Virus record (IMG/VR): IMGVR_UViG_3300047297_000053
Span: 1 to 29,552 of that record
Direction: 5' to 3' (one strand)
Length of the DNA: 29,552 nucleotides
Source of the DNA: a virus
Both the position numbers and the translations under genes were made by a program. Under the pieces are notes generated by a model. It made no database searches. It was not told the DNA's origin and saw only the letters and a list, made by a program, of their open reading frames with translations. Below, piece after piece: positions 1,238 to 29,552 of this stretch; the stretch's first letter is position 1; each line of letters opens with the position of its first letter.

Positions 1238-3070
1238 CTATTTGACAACGGATACTTTTCTCGTAGTATCCACACGATCAGTTGTTCTGCGGATGTCACC
1301 TTCAGTCACAAATACCTTTGTATCAAATCCGCTTACTGAAGGAAGTGATGAGCTGATGTTTGGTGCTGACATTTGTGGCATTCCTCCACCACCCATTTGT
1401 GATGGTGCTGATGCTGCCCCACCACCTTTGCCACTTTTCAAGATTGCTCTTGCTTTGTTTGCTGCTCCCAATACTGCTGCAATTTGTGATGCGTAGAATA
1501 TAGGGAATGCAAATGGTGCTGCTGGTCCGGTTGCCTTTGCTCCTTTTTGTGCGATGTCCAATGCGTTGATAAATCCAACACCCGTTCCAATTGCGATATC
1601 AACCAATGCTGCGGCTTTTGCTGCGTCACTACCTTCTTTGAACAATCCACCAAGTGCCAATACGGCATCCCTTGTTGCCTGAACCATTTCCGCTTTGGCA
1701 GTCATCAATGCTTCTTGATTGAGCAAAGCATCTTCAGTTGCCTTTTTGTCAATGTCGGCTTTTGCTTTGGCTTCTTCATCTGCAATCTTGATGGCTTCGG
1801 CTGAATTCTTTTTTGCAAGGTCAAGTTCTGCGGCATCAACTTCAGCAGTTGCAACAATTTCTAAATCCTTGTATTTTTTATTGATTAACGCCAACGCATC
1901 ATTGTTCCCTTTGGCTGCTTTTTGTTCTTCAATTTGTGCTTCTTTTAATGCAGCAAGTTTATTGCTATATTCCTTTTGAATCCTTTCTCCTTCATCATCA
2001 ATCATTGCCAATTCTTTTTGCCTTTCTGCTTCGTTTGCAGAAAGTCGTGCGGAATTGGTTTGATCAAGAATCCTTTGTTGTTCTGCTGCTGCATCTTTTT
2101 CCCTTTGAAGTCGTTCTTGGCGTTTCTTTTCGGTTTCCGCTTTTGCATCTGCATCAAGTTTGTCTTGTTTTGCTTTTGCAGCATTTGCAGCATCGGTTGT
2201 GATTTTGTCAATGTTCTTCTGATATTGCTTTTCTTGAAGTTCAAGTGCAGTATCTTTCACGGTTTCTTGCTGAATCCTTACATTGATTGCATCCTTATCT
2301 TTTTGTTTAGTAGCACGATTCAAGTCATCAAACAAAAGATTCATATCCTTGTTATGCTTTTCCCTTGTCGCTTTTGTTTCAGCGAGTAACCTGATGTTTG
2401 TCTCAAGTTCTGTTTCACCTAATTTTTGAATTTCACCAGCTAATCTTCTTTGCTCTTTGCTGACTTCTGCCAATGCTTTTGCTGCTTCCCCTCCAGCATC
2501 TTTCATTGCCAAAAATTTGTCAACCAAATAGCCAACCGCAATAATGATTGCACCAATACCCAATGTTGAAAGAACTGATTTGAACATTTGAGCTGATGTT
2601 GCACCGGCTTTGAATCCAGCAGCAATCATTTGACCCATCCCCGTGAATGCACCGCCTATGCTTTTTGCAATTGCAGTAAATTGTTGTTGAACTTTTCCTA
2701 ATCCCTCAAGACCTTGTGTCAATGCCATTGCCCCTTGCAATTTGATCATTGTCTTTTCAAAGTCCTTTGATTCAGTTCCAAACAAAGCCATTGCCCCTTG
2801 TGCTGCTTGGAATCCATTTGCAACGCCCATCACAACGGTGTTCAATCTCGCAAACTTATCAGGATTGACCGCTTTCACACGATCATTGAAATCCTCCATC
2901 CTATCCCTTGCACCGGCAAGTGCCTTTTCCGCTTTGACGGCTTCAGGTGAGAACTCTCCGAACTCCATCACCGCTTGTTGAGCTGCAATGGTCAGTTCCT
3001 TTATTTCGGACTTCATTGATTTGAAGTCAGGTTTTTTGACGGTTAAGTCAATCGTTGCGTTTAGTGCCAT
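1238..3070 (-). CDS. Tail tape measure protein
   Basis: A 610-residue protein rich in Ala, Lys, Glu and Gln. It has an N-terminal helical region (DFKSMKSEIKELTIAAQQAV), hydrophobic segments near residues 165-185 (LGIGAIIIAVGYLVDKFL) and near 490-545, a long coiled coil (about 200-450, with many EKKRQERLQ-type stretches), and a Gly/Ser/Met-rich tail. This architecture and size fit a tape measure protein, which sets tail length and occupies the tail tube lumen. At roughly 0.15 nm per residue, 610 residues would suggest a tail of about 90 nm, as an inference. Its ATG shares one base with the stop of the 950-residue tail gene (TAATG at 3070), so translation is probably coupled. Only 15 bp separate its stop from the protease start. 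Confidence 0.85.
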   Translation of the reverse strand: MALNATIDLTVKKPDFKSMKSEIKELTIAAQQAVMEFGEFSPEAVKAEKALAGARDRMEDFNDRVKAVNPDKFARLNTVVMGVANGFQAAQGAMALFGTESKDFEKTMIKLQGAMALTQGLEGLGKVQQQFTAIAKSIGGAFTGMGQMIAAGFKAGATSAQMFKSVLSTLGIGAIIIAVGYLVDKFLAMKDAGGEAAKALAEVSKEQRRLAGEIQKLGETELETNIRLLAETKATREKHNKDMNLLFDDLNRATKQKDKDAINVRIQQETVKDTALELQEKQYQKNIDKITTDAANAAKAKQDKLDADAKAETEKKRQERLQREKDAAAEQQRILDQTNSARLSANEAERQKELAMIDDEGERIQKEYSNKLAALKEAQIEEQKAAKGNNDALALINKKYKDLEIVATAEVDAAELDLAKKNSAEAIKIADEEAKAKADIDKKATEDALLNQEALMTAKAEMVQATRDAVLALGGLFKEGSDAAKAAALVDIAIGTGVGFINALDIAQKGAKATGPAAPFAFPIFYASQIAAVLGAANKARAILKSGKGGGAASAPSQMGGGGMPQMSAPNISSSLPSVSGFDTKVFVTEGDIRRTTDRVDTTRKVSVVK

Positions 3071-7230: not shown

Positions 7231-7581
7231 TTACAACATCTCGTTGAGACAAGCAACAATGTACGGATTGAATCCTTTCCCGGCAGCATCCTCCAATCGT
7301 TTCTGCCGTTCCTTTGTCTTGGCTTTGTAGAACGCCATCGCATTGAGAAATTCTATCAACGGCATATCAAGAATGTAATCCCATTTGGTGCGATCACCTT
7401 TGACAATCTTGTCAACTATCTCAAGCCAAACTATTGGGCTTTGGTCAACTGCTCGGTCATATCCTTCATCTCCTCCTTCAAAGAGCAAAGGATATTTTTC
7501 AATAATTCGGGATAAACTTCCAAAAAAAAAAGAGCATAGGTGTACGGAAGTGGAACCGGCAACGCCATCATCAAACTGCAC
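7231..7581 (-). CDS. Tail assembly chaperone, frameshifted C-terminal part (gpT-like)
   Basis: This frame lies -1 relative to the 186-residue chaperone ORF and overlaps it by 151 bp. It has no convincing own start or ribosome-binding site; the ATG at 7581 lies within the upstream frame. A run of ten T (7531-7522 on the coding strand) joins the two: reading ...GCT CTT TTT TTT and slipping back one base continues as TTT GGA AGT. The fusion would keep 156 upstream residues and add 97 (GSLSRIIEKYPLLF... to the end), about 253 in all. Two-frame chaperones of this kind (lambda G/GT) bind the tape measure during tail assembly. Location just before the tail genes supports this. The sequence has no family motif I can name, so the call rests on architecture and position. 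Confidence 0.65.
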   Translation of the reverse strand: MQFDDGVAGSTSVHLCSFFFGSLSRIIEKYPLLFEGGDEGYDRAVDQSPIVWLEIVDKIVKGDRTKWDYILDMPLIEFLNAMAFYKAKTKERQKRLEDAAGKGFNPYIVACLNEML

Positions 7582-7991
7582 TTGTCTTCATAGTGTGCCT
7601 GAGCATCAACGACTTTCTTGTTCCTTCCAAAGAAGTCAACCTCCACCGATAGCAATGCAACAATCTTGTGAAGCGATTCAATCACATCTCCGTTAAATAC
7701 TTGCTGGAGTTCAATGAAGTGGTGACCACACATTTCGTTAGGCGTTTTGGCTAATCTGAAATAACGACCACGCAGTTTGAACATAAACTGAATCGGTGCT
7801 TTTGGTAGGTCATTGAGAAACGACAACTTTGCAAACTCGGTTGTGAGCTTGTCAAGAGTCATTGATTCAACCTCATCCATTGAAAGATTCAAAGCAATGG
7901 CAAGTATGTTCATCTGCCGTTCAAGGTCAGACATATCACGACAAGAGTGAATCTCTTGCAGTTGGTGGATGGTTATGTTTTTCCAATTCAT
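7431..7991 (-). CDS. Tail assembly chaperone, unshifted product (gpG-like)
   Basis: 186 residues starting MNWKNITIHQLQEI, helical, without catalytic motifs. Its codons 154-157 read CTT TTT TTT TTG over a T10 run, after which the -1 frame stays open to 7231 while this frame ends at 7431. That gives the short/long product pair typical of tail assembly chaperones. It lies between the large terminase (stop 8036, 44 bp upstream) and the tail genes. The N-terminal part (residues 1-100) looks like the conserved portion, with FKLRGRYFRLAK and CGHHFIELQQVF. The role is inferred from the frameshift pair and synteny. Confidence 0.65.
   Translation of the reverse strand: MNWKNITIHQLQEIHSCRDMSDLERQMNILAIALNLSMDEVESMTLDKLTTEFAKLSFLNDLPKAPIQFMFKLRGRYFRLAKTPNEMCGHHFIELQQVFNGDVIESLHKIVALLSVEVDFFGRNKKVVDAQAHYEDKCSLMMALPVPLPYTYALFFLEVYPELLKNILCSLKEEMKDMTEQLTKAQ
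7522..7531 (-). other. Slippery T10 run for -1 frameshift or polymerase slippage
   Basis: Ten consecutive T on the coding strand, framed CTC-T10-GG. In the zero frame this offers T TTT TTT, a heptamer on which both P- and A-site tRNAs re-pair after a -1 slip. A run this long could also work by transcriptional slippage (one extra U). Either gives the same 253-residue fusion. I did not identify a clear downstream pseudoknot. Confidence 0.65.
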
Positions 7992-8035: not shown

Positions 8036-9223
8036 CTATGCAAAATAAAATGTTCCTGGTCTATTATGAGTTTTGCAATCAACGGCAAGTGCGAGAGCCA
8101 TCACGCAGTCATCGTGTAGTCCAGCGGGTGCAGTATATCGCACACCAGTTCTTGTGTATTCAAATTCAAAGTTCTCCATCTCCGAGCCAATCGGTTCTTC
8201 AGGAAAGAACACATCGGTTTGTTGAACCGACATCACCAATCCTTCAATGAGTTGTTGTTTGCTTTGGCTTGTGAACTTGAATCCCTTCACTCTTTGACAA
8301 AGTCGTTGTAGTTGTTCCACGATAGGATCACCCACTCCAGTTGAATCAACAAACGATGGTGTGTTTCCAATCAGTTTGACAATCCGTGCTTGAGTGACTG
8401 ACCAATCGGCTTGAAATCGTTCGCAATATGATACGCAATTATTCGCATCCATACCAATAATAACCGTATAATCCGAGTATTTGGCAAGGTCAATTCCCCA
8501 AGCAACAACGGGCATTGATGAAATAGGTCGGTAGCATTTGCGGATTGCATCTATGCCAAACGGATTTGATTTGTCATCGGCTGGTTCTGCAAGGTATAAT
8601 TCACGAAAGACATAATCAGGTAGATCTCGCTTGGCTTGTTCAATCTCTGATTCCGAGATGATGCCTTCCCTTGCAGCATCGTATGCCGTTATTTTGAAAT
8701 ACTTGTATTCGGGTTCTCCTTGCCTTGCTCTCTCGCCTAATTTATAGAACCAGTTCTTTTTACCTTTGACATTCCCGATGAGTTTGCACTTGCCTTGTGT
8801 AGCAGTCAGCGTTGAACGGAGTGCATACCAACTCTCCTCACGCATCCTTGATGCTTCATCAATCACGGCAGCATATACATCGTCACCATACAAGTTGTCC
8901 GGCTTCTCTCCGCTCTTGAACTCTATGCGTGATCCAGTTGGCAAGGTCAACAATAGTTTTGTTTCGTTGCTCAAGAAGAAGTTCTTGTCGGTGACTTGGT
9001 TCTTCATCCTTCGGAATGCAATCTCCGCTTGTTGGTATACTGGGGCAACCCACCACACCGACTGACCATCCTTGCATTGGAGTGCTTGTTCAAAGAGCCA
9101 AATGATATGGGATGCCGTCTTTCCCGTTTTTGTACTCGCAGCAGTAATCGTGAACCTCTCCTCGCAATCAAGGATGTCCTTTTGGTAACTCGTCAGATAT
9201 GGTCGTGTGTAATTTATTTGCAC
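8036..9223 (-). CDS. terL: Terminase large subunit
   Basis: 395 residues. The ATPase domain has a Walker A-like TAASTKTGKT (about 27-36) and Walker B AAVIDEAS (D121, E122). The C-terminal RNase H-like nuclease has GIDLAKYSD (D244), VDSTGVGDP (D292) and GLHDDCVMALALA (D370, D371). Together these define a phage DNA-packaging motor that cuts concatemers and pumps DNA through the portal. At 395 residues it is a compact TerL. It overlaps the upstream glycosyltransferase by 10 bp, and the tail chaperone follows. The portal is far away at 21783-23666, so the usual TerL-portal adjacency is broken here. Confidence 0.95.
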   Translation of the reverse strand: MQINYTRPYLTSYQKDILDCEERFTITAASTKTGKTASHIIWLFEQALQCKDGQSVWWVAPVYQQAEIAFRRMKNQVTDKNFFLSNETKLLLTLPTGSRIEFKSGEKPDNLYGDDVYAAVIDEASRMREESWYALRSTLTATQGKCKLIGNVKGKKNWFYKLGERARQGEPEYKYFKITAYDAAREGIISESEIEQAKRDLPDYVFRELYLAEPADDKSNPFGIDAIRKCYRPISSMPVVAWGIDLAKYSDYTVIIGMDANNCVSYCERFQADWSVTQARIVKLIGNTPSFVDSTGVGDPIVEQLQRLCQRVKGFKFTSQSKQQLIEGLVMSVQQTDVFFPEEPIGSEMENFEFEYTRTGVRYTAPAGLHDDCVMALALAVDCKTHNRPGTFYFA

Positions 9224-10203
9224 AACGATTTGTAAAGTGCTAAACGAGTAAGGTTGTGAAGTTCAAGATTGTGATGCTTTTGGCAGTAGTCGTAGTTTGC
9301 CAATCCCATTGACTGACGAACCGAGTGACCAACATCAATCAGTTTCTGAATCGCAGTCCGCCAATCGTTTTGAGTTACCAACAACACCCCGTCATTCGCT
9401 TGATGGTATAAGTACGGATACACCGCAGAACAAATGATTGGCTTCTTATAAGCACTTGCTTCCACAATCTTCAGCTCAGATTTGCATTGGTTGAACTTGT
9501 TGTCTTGCAACGGTGCAATCACAATGTCAAAATGCTTGTACACTTCACCATATTCAAACACCGATGTGCCTTCCACAATCTTTGCATTGGGCATACTCTT
9601 GGCAATGCGATTCCAAATCTCTCCTGGTGTGTAACCGCAGATGTAGAACTCAATGTCAAGTCCTTTGATTTGGTCAGCAATCAATTTCAAGTCCTCCTCG
9701 TGTGTAACTCCACCAACCCATCCGACCTTCACTTTGTCGGTGCGTTCTGATGGCACGGCTTCCCATTGCTTGTGTGTGTAGTCCAAACAGTTGGATGCGA
9801 TGATGACATTCTCGTTGATTTGACGAATCTCTTTTGCAAGTGCTGGTGTTGTGGTGATCACCGCATCAGCGTAATTGATTGCATCTTTCACGCCTTGTTT
9901 GATTCCTTTGCGATATGCCCAATATGCCGGGTTGTATTTAGGAAGCACCCAATAGTCGTCAATGTCCACGACATAGGGAGTGCCTGAATCAGCAATCTTC
10001 TTCAAGACATCATAATGCTTTGCACCAAGCCATCGTGAGAACACAACCACATCAAATTGAGAATAGTCAAGTGTGAGCCATTCTTCTGCAGATTGACAAA
10101 CGCTGACATCTGCGTGTCCATCAATCTGCATCCGAAGGTGTGGTGTGAATAGACGGTGGTAAACAACACCATTGATTCCGTCAGTTAGAATAAGGAGTTT
10201 CAT
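9214..10203 (-). CDS. GT-B glycosyltransferase between terminase genes
   Basis: 329 residues with a two-domain GT-B layout: N-terminal Rossmann-like half (MKLLILTDGINGVVYHRL; VVDIDDYW near 78-85), second half beginning near VKVGWVGGVTHEEDL (158-172), and the donor-binding stretch APLQDNKFNQCKSELK then IVEASAYKKPII (230-257), where the Glu residues match the GT4-family E-x7-E region. It should transfer a sugar from a nucleotide donor, perhaps onto phage structural protein, host glycan or DNA; the acceptor cannot be told. It overlaps the 61-residue ORF by 4 bp upstream and terL by 10 bp downstream, so it is co-translated with packaging genes. Confidence 0.85.
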   Translation of the reverse strand: MKLLILTDGINGVVYHRLFTPHLRMQIDGHADVSVCQSAEEWLTLDYSQFDVVVFSRWLGAKHYDVLKKIADSGTPYVVDIDDYWVLPKYNPAYWAYRKGIKQGVKDAINYADAVITTTPALAKEIRQINENVIIASNCLDYTHKQWEAVPSERTDKVKVGWVGGVTHEEDLKLIADQIKGLDIEFYICGYTPGEIWNRIAKSMPNAKIVEGTSVFEYGEVYKHFDIVIAPLQDNKFNQCKSELKIVEASAYKKPIICSAVYPYLYHQANDGVLLVTQNDWRTAIQKLIDVGHSVRQSMGLANYDYCQKHHNLELHNLTRLALYKSLCK

Positions 10204-10385
10204 TCGTTTGGTAGAATTGGGATTGGCATCCAGTACATCACATTAATCCAAGACATCGTGTTCTCGTCAATCCACATATCTCCATTGTACCGAGCAAGTT
10301 TGATTTCGCCATCAAAGGTTGCAACGAGTTTAAGTTCTCCGTCATACGGTGGGAATGTGTCCTCACCTCTCCAAGTTTTTTTCAT
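10200..10385 (-). CDS. Small protein with DUF551-like ending
   Basis: 61 residues, overlapping the small terminase by 23 bp and the glycosyltransferase by 4 bp. It starts MKKTWRGEDTFPPYDGEL and ends SWINVMYWMPIPILPNE, which resembles the W..V..WMP.P.PP ending of DUF551-type phage proteins. The function of that group is unknown. The aromatic, acidic composition suggests a compact soluble protein. I place moderate trust in it being real because it fills the gap between two firm genes without leaving spare sequence. Confidence 0.65.
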   Translation of the reverse strand: MKKTWRGEDTFPPYDGELKLVATFDGEIKLARYNGDMWIDENTMSWINVMYWMPIPILPNE

Positions 10386-10752
10386 CGAGATTCAAAGTTA
10401 TTGTAAAGTTTTTTGATTGTATTGTTTGATCAATGGTCTCTTTCGGTTTGCCTTGTGAACGAGTGAGTAGCGTCTCCAAGTTAAACAAAGAGTTCTTGTC
10501 GTGCGACTTTAATAACGCACCGGCAATGATTCGTTCAAGGATGGTGTATTCGTCACCCTTGTCGATGGCTTCAAGGTCTTTGCGTGACATCACGAGCATC
10601 GTGTTGACGGTGTCTTCGACTTGACTCTTTTGATACCCGATTTCTTTCAATAGGGTAACCAATTTCTTTGGTCTGCCGTGCGGATTCAGGACTTCTCCTT
10701 TCGCTGGTCTTGTCAAACTTCCTCCGTGTGGTTGCTTCTCTTGTGTTGCCAT
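10363..10752 (-). CDS. terS: Terminase small subunit-like (DUF5681-like N-terminus)
   Basis: 129 residues. The N-terminus GGSLTRPAKGEVLNPHGRP followed by KKLVTL has the Gly-Arg-Pro-rich start found in DUF5681 and terminase small subunit-like proteins. The remainder is helical and charged (SRKDLEAIDKGDEYTILERI, SKNFTITLNLDE). TerS recognises the packaging site and regulates TerL. Its position directly after an HNH nuclease gene and two genes before terL supports the call. ATG at 10752 is preceded by GGAG. No N-terminal HTH is obvious, so the assignment depends partly on context. Confidence 0.7.
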   Translation of the reverse strand: MATQEKQPHGGSLTRPAKGEVLNPHGRPKKLVTLLKEIGYQKSQVEDTVNTMLVMSRKDLEAIDKGDEYTILERIIAGALLKSHDKNSLFNLETLLTRSQGKPKETIDQTIQSKNFTITLNLDEKNLER

Positions 10753-10761
10753 ATCTCCGAA

Positions 10762-11016
10762 TTATCCCCGAATTAATCTTTCTGCGTGTTTGCATTTCAA
10801 GAAGTCCTTGTATTGCTTCTTGTCCCCATATTTGATGTGGCACTCTCTACACAAACACATCAGATTTTCGATGACATCTTTGGTTGTTGTTCCTCCCATT
10901 CCCCTTGCTTCGATGTGGTGTAAGTCGTTACCAACTTTCCCGCACACTTCACAATCTATGAATGAGCTGATGTCATATCCGAAGTGGTTAAAATATACCA
11001 TCGTGTGTTTTTTCAA
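10762..11016 (-). CDS. HNH endonuclease
   Basis: 84 residues with a complete zinc-binding HNH motif: C22-x2-C25 (CEVC), H33-H34 (LHHIE), N51 (IENLMCLC), C56-x2-C59 and H60 (CRECH). HNH proteins beside terminase genes, like HK97 gp74, assist specific cutting of concatemeric DNA during packaging; that role is inferred here from the adjacent terS and terL. It overlaps the upstream 73-residue gene by 4 bp (ATGA). MKKHTMVYF and the internal MVYF are both possible starts; the overlap favours the first. Confidence 0.9.
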   Translation of the reverse strand: MKKHTMVYFNHFGYDISSFIDCEVCGKVGNDLHHIEARGMGGTTTKDVIENLMCLCRECHIKYGDKKQYKDFLKCKHAERLIRG

Positions 11017-29036: not shown

Positions 29037-29552
29037 TTATTTGCCATTCCATTGGCTAAGGATTGATTTCATTTGCTCAATCAGTTGTTCATCAGCATCA
29101 ACGGGAAAGTCAAAAACACCTTCAACGGAGAATCCTTTGAACTCGCCTGACTTCACTTTTGCCCACACTTCATCGTTGTCAATCAAGTATGAAACAAACC
29201 ACGAACCATCGGCAACCTCCTCAAATCCCATCGGTGGCATCACGCCCCTTTGTCGGTCAATGATGTATGATTCAAACAAGCTCACGCCATCAGCGATTGG
29301 AGTTTTGTGGTGAGTGTTCACGGCATCGTACTTGTTGCCCCTTGCCCACTTTTTAGCAATCTTGAAGATGCTCTCTTTGTCAAATACAACATAGTATTCA
29401 CCACGAACATCATCCCTTCGATAGATGGGTAGATCAGCAATCATCGCTGCACCAGTAACGATTCGTTTCTCCTCGTCTTGGATGGCAAATTTACTCGCTG
29501 ACAATTTGCGTTCAGTCCAACGGAACATCTCCTCACCACCCCACAACAAATA
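29037..29552 (-). CDS. XkdF-like prohead protease, C-terminal catalytic part
   Basis: This is the continuation of the gene at 1-1222. It holds residues of about 366-536, with KFAIQDEEKRIVTGAAMIAD followed by LPIYR, a His-containing stretch (NTHHKTP) and FKGFSVEGVFDF, the conserved core of the XkdF-like putative serine prohead protease family. That family processes scaffold and capsid N-termini inside the prohead. The apparent start inside the end of the window (TTG near 29549) is an artefact of the cut; the true start is ATG at 1222. The stop at 29037 is about 40 bp before the scaffold-like gene (start 28997), giving the classic order protease, scaffold, major capsid. Family assignment is firm; the identity of the catalytic Ser cannot be settled by eye. 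Confidence 0.85.
   Translation of the reverse strand, partial: YLLWGGEEMFRWTERKLSASKFAIQDEEKRIVTGAAMIADLPIYRRDDVRGEYYVVFDKESIFKIAKKWARGNKYDAVNTHHKTPIADGVSLFESYIIDRQRGVMPPMGFEEVADGSWFVSYLIDNDEVWAKVKSGEFKGFSVEGVFDFPVDADEQLIEQMKSILSQWNGK
29426..29552. repeat. Terminal repeat, copy 2 (circular-assembly overlap)
   Basis: Exact copy of bases 1-127; see that entry. Collapsing the two copies joins the N-terminal part of the protease gene (1-1222) to its C-terminal part (29037 onward). Confidence 0.93.

Follow-up and report, generated by a model that had tools for sequence, protein, structure and literature searches.

A probable tail assembly chaperone gene expressed by -1 frameshifting at a conserved T run in an uncultivated long-tailed phage

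A gene adjoining the terminase gene in an uncultivated viral genome is, at a probability of about 0.74, the tail assembly chaperone gene of a long-tailed phage, probably with a Bacteroidota host, that gives two products by programmed -1 frameshifting. The genome is IMG/VR record IMGVR_UViG_3300047297_000053, all 29,552 nucleotides of which were analysed and are referred to here as the window. In the proposed mechanism, most ribosomes would stay in the 0 frame and make a gpG-like protein of 186 amino acids, and a small fraction would slip back by one base, with two Phe-tRNAs on T_TTT_TTT inside a run of ten Ts (T10). Slipped ribosomes would continue in the -1 frame, making a protein of 253 amino acids with a second, mostly helical, gpT-like domain. 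On the model of lambda gpG/gpGT, the part common to both products would be expected to attach to the tape measure protein, with the -1 domain bringing in the tail tube protein. Frameshifting of this kind is already known; the protein family itself is new, unannotated and not recognised by the databases searched. The features of the locus are as follows.

7431..7991, minus strand: short product, the gpG-like candidate tail assembly chaperone (N domain), a 0-frame ORF of 186 amino acids
7522..7531, minus strand: slip site, T10, the same in each of the 51 close sequences (window included) extending to the run
7524..7530, minus strand: in-frame slippery heptamer T_TTT_TTT inside the T10 run, read from the sequence
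7231..7530, minus strand: gpT-like domain in the -1 frame, some 100 codons long, its stop ending at 7231
7231..7991, minus strand: candidate long product, a gpGT-like -1 fusion of 253 amino acids, length and sequence computed
7431..7521, minus strand: dual-coding overlap, in which the 0-frame tail and the -1 frame are both open and variability is spread over all three codon positions
7579..7581, minus strand: -1-frame GTG, mechanically a start codon but rejected on substitution patterns and on stops in relatives
8036..9223, minus strand: terminase large subunit, just upstream of the frameshift gene (PHROG 2, E 8.2e-35; Pfam Terminase_6N, E 7.3e-8)
1238..3070, minus strand: candidate tape measure protein of 610 amino acids, third gene downstream (PHROG 339, 'tail length tape measure protein', a weak match at E 6.8e-4)

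The 0-frame ORF runs from 7991 to 7431 on the minus strand and contains GCT CTT TTT TTT TTG, with its T10 at 7531-7522 on the coding strand (A10 at 7522-7531 on the plus strand). In the -1 frame the run reads TCT TTT TTT TTT GGA, and this frame is open until the stop ending at 7231. The fusion computed from the two frames spans 7991-7231 with the junction ...YALFFFGSL; the +1 frame meets a stop 10 codons past the run, in close relatives and the window alike. A preliminary description of this DNA had two overlapping frames meeting at a ten-T run and a 253-residue fusion arising from a -1 slip, and both points stand, the second with strong comparative evidence. It had also called the run unusually long, which it is not: one A10/T10 run was found in the window against 1.53 expected from dinucleotide shuffles. 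Since such a run is not unusual for the composition of the window, the argument rests on relatives.

An IMG/VR scan yielded 77 loci, or 78 with the window; three of them (L052, L076 and L078) end before the slip site and were dropped, leaving 75 that reach it. Relatives of the short product share 39-97% identity with it, apart from one distant sequence (L171) at 25%. The exact T10, in the same phase, is present in 51 of 51 close sequences, the window included; 49 of these have 100 open codons in the -1 frame, and in the other two the contig ends earlier. By sequence comparison, the real signal of frameshifting is the conserved switch of frame at the run. Among 35 distinct full-length sequences of the close clade, variable sites at 0-frame codon positions 1, 2 and 3 number 27/134, 10/133 and 97/133 before the slip site, 9/30, 8/30 and 11/31 in the overlap, and 3/67, 45/67 and 9/66 past the 0-frame stop, the last set being the third-position variation of the -1 frame. 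Past this stop, 38 of 67 codons of the -1 frame vary only synonymously and 8 nonsynonymously. A clade at about 46% identity (21 distinct sequences) switches likewise, with 2/72, 41/72 and 10/71 past the 0-frame stop.

Wider scans, two of which gave the best 80 of 166 and the best 80 of 174 matches, enlarged the set to at least 247 entries, in which many contigs appear more than once. Of the 247 entries listed, 242 have the -1 domain; the five without it (L052, L076, L078, L153 and L171) are truncated or too distant. In each of the 242, a 0-frame ORF 163 or more codons long lies one base out of frame from the -1 domain. As the -1 frame never stays open for more than 49 codons upstream, an in-frame fusion occurs in none of them. 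Seven types of site occur among the entries listed: CTT TTT TTT TTG (T10); CTT TTT TTT TCG followed by GCA, ACT or GCT (three types, T9); GTT TTT TTT TCG (T9); TCT TTT TTC TTG (T6C); and GTT TTT TCT TTG (T6, here GT6C). Five of the seven thus carry T9 or T10 and two carry T6, and in six the heptamer T_TTT_TTT or T_TTT_TTC is in frame, being retained among relatives save in the GTT TTT TCT clade. That clade (L075, L111 and L112) shows the -1 arrangement without a classical in-frame heptamer.

To group the sites independently of the slip codons, we clustered 115 distinct sequences by the upstream protein with these codons left out. The seven resulting clusters, of 35, 30, 20, 19, 4, 4 and 3 distinct sequences, are the same groups as those formed by the slip codons, and each has zero variation at the four slip codons. 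Of comparable degenerate codons, only 27-38% are invariant in the four large clusters, against 55-69% in the three small clusters, which on that account add little. A tree was built from 40 of 102 distinct fused sequences; in it every site type falls in one group, the weakest being T9a (75/99), with T6C and GT6C as sister groups (97/98). The T6C clade, with only six Ts in T_TTT_TTC, comprises 23 loci among the 75 sequences above and 20 distinct sequences in the clustering, and has the same -1 arrangement. The distant L171 has GAT TTT TTT TTT CTC, ten Ts in another codon layout, followed by a -1 tail that was matched by the -1-domain profile at E 1.6e-5 in an assembled set of 415 sequences.

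A counterpart was found among cultured phages. The model of the N domain matches viral models, mostly from uncultured Caudovirales, and also Nonlabens phage P12024S (BFVD, E 1.3e-8), in which the terminase gene is followed by a gene for the 175-amino-acid gp38 containing ATA CTT TTT TTT TAT (T9), with gp39 in the -1 frame of gp38. In the P12024S record (L248, NC_018271, 23136-23830), gp38 and gp39 are annotated as two hypothetical proteins, gp39 from an internal ATG. From their layout the two look like one frameshifted gene, from which the Nonlabens phage annotation splits off the -1 domain. A scan for loci of the P12024S type returned 63, of which 62 were examined (a fragment, L312, was omitted) and four run off the contig; TTTTTTT is in frame in all 58 readable loci (42 distinct), the run being T9 in 57 and T10 in one. 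Among the P12024S-type -1 tails, two gave a match to the -1-domain profile (L290, 7.4e-5; L257, 6.4e-4). P12024S and the window have portal, other structural and recombination genes in common at 21-40% identity, and both have the terminase as neighbour, a similar N-domain structure and a -1 domain joined at a T run. They differ in that the N-domain profile does not match gp38, the -1-domain profile does not match the -1 tail of P12024S itself, and the two terminases do not match by tblastn at E 0.01. Because of these mismatches, the link to P12024S rests on structure, neighbourhood, layout and shared structural genes. The host of the window phage is probably a member of the Bacteroidota, as judged from this kinship only. 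The proposed gene would account for an unannotated terminase-adjacent gene in many uncultivated phages and in cultured Nonlabens phages.

Two further arrangements were seen in this part of the survey. In 26 P12024S-type loci (L279, L283-L286, L288-L299, L302-L309 and L311), the 0 frame is open for 84 codons past the slip against 92 for the -1 frame, so that overprinting covers nearly all of the -1 domain and the fusion is only slightly longer than the 'short' product; across 18 distinct sequences this stretch has few variable sites (2/84, 14/84 and 9/83). In Flavobacterium phage 6H, gp10 (L249, NC_021867, complement of 10352-10927), a BFVD match to the N domain with a TM score of 0.37, ends near T_TTT_TTC; its -1 frame stops at once, yet reopens just after.

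How the frame is changed bears on the reading of the whole family. T_TTT_TTT, or T_TTT_TTC in the T6C clade, lets both Phe-tRNAs re-pair after a -1 step. According to PMC5009743, U_UUU_UUU is less shifty than A_AAA_AAG in E. coli, which fits a long product made at a low level. A stimulatory RNA structure common to the clades was sought and none was found, single-sequence z-scores for stem-loops ranging from about +1.5 to -4 and varying with the window scored and the clade. Since the T6C branch has six Ts at a classical T_TTT_TTC site, the arrangement does not depend on a long run, and the best common mechanism would be slippage by the ribosome.

The strongest competing account, in line with a suggestion in the preliminary description, is that RNA polymerase slips at T9 or T10, an extra U (as in T11) giving the -1 frame either alone or alongside ribosomal slipping. 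Runs of more than eight Ts are known slippage sites (PMC3711429), and T9 or T10 is retained in five of the seven clusters as well as in every one of the 58 readable P12024S-type loci. L171 keeps ten Ts although its codon layout is different, and the GTT TTT TCT clade has T6 but not the phase of the heptamer. Against this, the T_TTT_TTC clade keeps the same -1 arrangement with six Ts only, and an NTT-type run beyond seven can result from coding alone, where the heptamer is preceded by a hydrophobic NTT codon and followed by a codon starting with T. We regard as doubtful the proposal that the family is held at T9 or longer because polymerase slippage, solely or partly, sets the ratio of short to long product, the T6C side branch having moved to a classical ribosomal site. 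In the GTT TTT TCT clade, a ribosomal slip would let the P-site tRNA re-pair fully and would need wobble at the middle position from the A-site tRNA; alternatively, the polymerase may slip on T6.

Thermus dnaX (A9) and Shigella mxiE (a T run of over eight), examples of genes with transcriptional slippage (PMC3711429), resemble the window in having a homopolymer of similar length at the frame transition; they differ from it in that another branch of the window family uses T6C in the classical ribosomal phase. Our search of the open-access literature found no description of a phage tail chaperone with a T-run slip site or with transcriptional slippage. The peptide is identical whether a U is added or the ribosome steps back by one base (CTT TTT TTT TTT GGA, LFFFG), so peptides cannot separate the two routes; mass spectrometry of the junction would prove the fusion and not the mechanism, ALFFFG arising from ribosome or polymerase alike. 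The related genes with T10, T9, T6C and GT6C sites offer a natural series on how slippage of the ribosome and of the polymerase share the frameshift. Were one mechanism alone to appear across this series, the other would be excluded for this chaperone-like family.

The preliminary description likened the locus to the short/long tail chaperone pairs of long-tailed phages. The short/long -1 pair is strongly supported by the comparisons above, and the chaperone role is very probable, judged by architecture, genome context and weak hints from fold. Searches of Pfam, PHROGs and PDB sequences gave no credible family match for the frameshift products; tblastn against INPHARED with the N domain, the -1 domain or the L171 N domain gave no match, and a scan of genome_contigs with the -1 domain gave no relative. 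By structure, the AlphaFold2 model of the 186-amino-acid product (pLDDT 86, pTM 0.76) was compared with the PDB by VIA, where the first row is the HK97 tail assembly chaperone 2ob9, at a weak Z of 3.5 over 59 residues, covering N-domain residues 2-64 with 10% identity. Foldseek against the PDB gave no significant row for the N domain among the 50 of 53 rows listed, and 2ob9 was absent from these. In BFVD, rows 40 and 44 are named tail assembly chaperone, with weak E values of 0.067 and 0.39. The -1 domain model (pLDDT 70) had no convincing match in the fold search.

In lambda, the G/GT pair lies directly upstream of the tape measure gene and its slip site is G_GGA_AAG. The gene in the window differs from lambda gpG/gpGT in having T_TTT_TTT instead, in having no sequence match to that pair, and in its position: it adjoins the terminase gene, and the candidate tape measure gene lies downstream on the same strand, past two large intervening genes. 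It resembles lambda gpG/gpGT (PMC5009743) in its short 0-frame product and in a putative -1 extension, made at a low level, towards the end of the first ORF. A tailed-phage gene that yields two products through a -1 shift bears the signature of lambda-type tail chaperones, and known phage chaperone pairs shift to -1 at a low level despite low sequence similarity (PMC5009743). Short/long -1 pairs in tailed phages are typically chaperones (PMC5009743, PMC10885494); PMC10885494 reports that SEA-PHAGES records contain 2397 chaperone genes with a joined annotation. For two chaperone genes, the measured frameshift levels were 6 and 7% (PMC3711429).

It is also conceivable, if unlikely, that this is a genuine -1 frameshift gene whose products are not tail chaperones and form, for example, some other structural or regulatory pair. 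The want of a credible sequence match to any named family, the weak fold evidence and the position of the gene away from the direct vicinity of the candidate tape measure gene would agree with such a pair. The typical role of short/long -1 pairs in tailed phages speaks against it, as do the HK97 chaperone in first place in VIA and the two named chaperones in BFVD, all with weak scores.

The preliminary description also held that the downstream frame has no usable start. Mechanically a start exists, and the comparative data argue that it goes unused. All 75 sequences have an NTG codon (67 ATG, 8 GTG) in the -1 frame, 51 bases ahead of the run's first -1 codon, the window having GTG at 7581, and gp39 of P12024S is annotated as a separate gene from an ATG inside the -1 domain; both observations would suit a separate gene in the -1 frame. 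The NTG is, however, a consequence of the 0-frame codons, which encode Lys-Cys in 51 of the 75 sequences; the other 24 have Arg-Cys, with an Arg codon that ends in A. Between the NTG and the slip site, codons that vary are nonsynonymous in the -1 frame at 12/13 in the close clade and 10/10 in the other clade, and mostly synonymous in the 0 frame (7/11 and 8/11, respectively), as expected of a stretch that evolves in the 0 frame. Stops in the -1 frame interrupt the same stretch in 3/24 and 3/14 distinct peptides, and in L075. Substitutions and stops together indicate that the -1 frame is selected only from about the slip site on, which, as far as sequence comparison goes, is a requirement of a frameshift and not of a separate gene. 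Across the relatives no separate start is conserved, and the -1 layout is present in 242 of 247 entries. On the frame-specific substitution patterns and the stops, we rejected an independent -1 start, which we consider very improbable.

Homopolymers are prone to sequencing error and this T10 is not rarer than chance in the window, but a decayed gene or a homopolymer assembly error is ruled out as the cause of the frame break by the exact T10 in 51 of 51 close sequences, on contigs from many different metagenome records, by purifying selection on both frames and by recurrence of the break in other clades with other slip sequences.

The window carries an exact direct terminal repeat of 127 bases (1-127 and 29426-29552), which gives a genome of 29,425 bases (about 29.4 kb) that is probably complete and was probably assembled as a circle. 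One ORF (2-1222 and 29037-29552, minus strand) seems to cross the contig junction. Directly upstream of the terminase gene lies a glycosyltransferase gene (9214-10203, minus strand; PHROG 7162, E 2.3e-57). Finally, a Shine-Dalgarno-like AAGGAGGAGATG occurs about 40 bases past the slip site, at about 7475-7490 on the minus strand of the window, and recurs in some clades, where it may merely reflect the overlapping KEEM/EGGDE codons.
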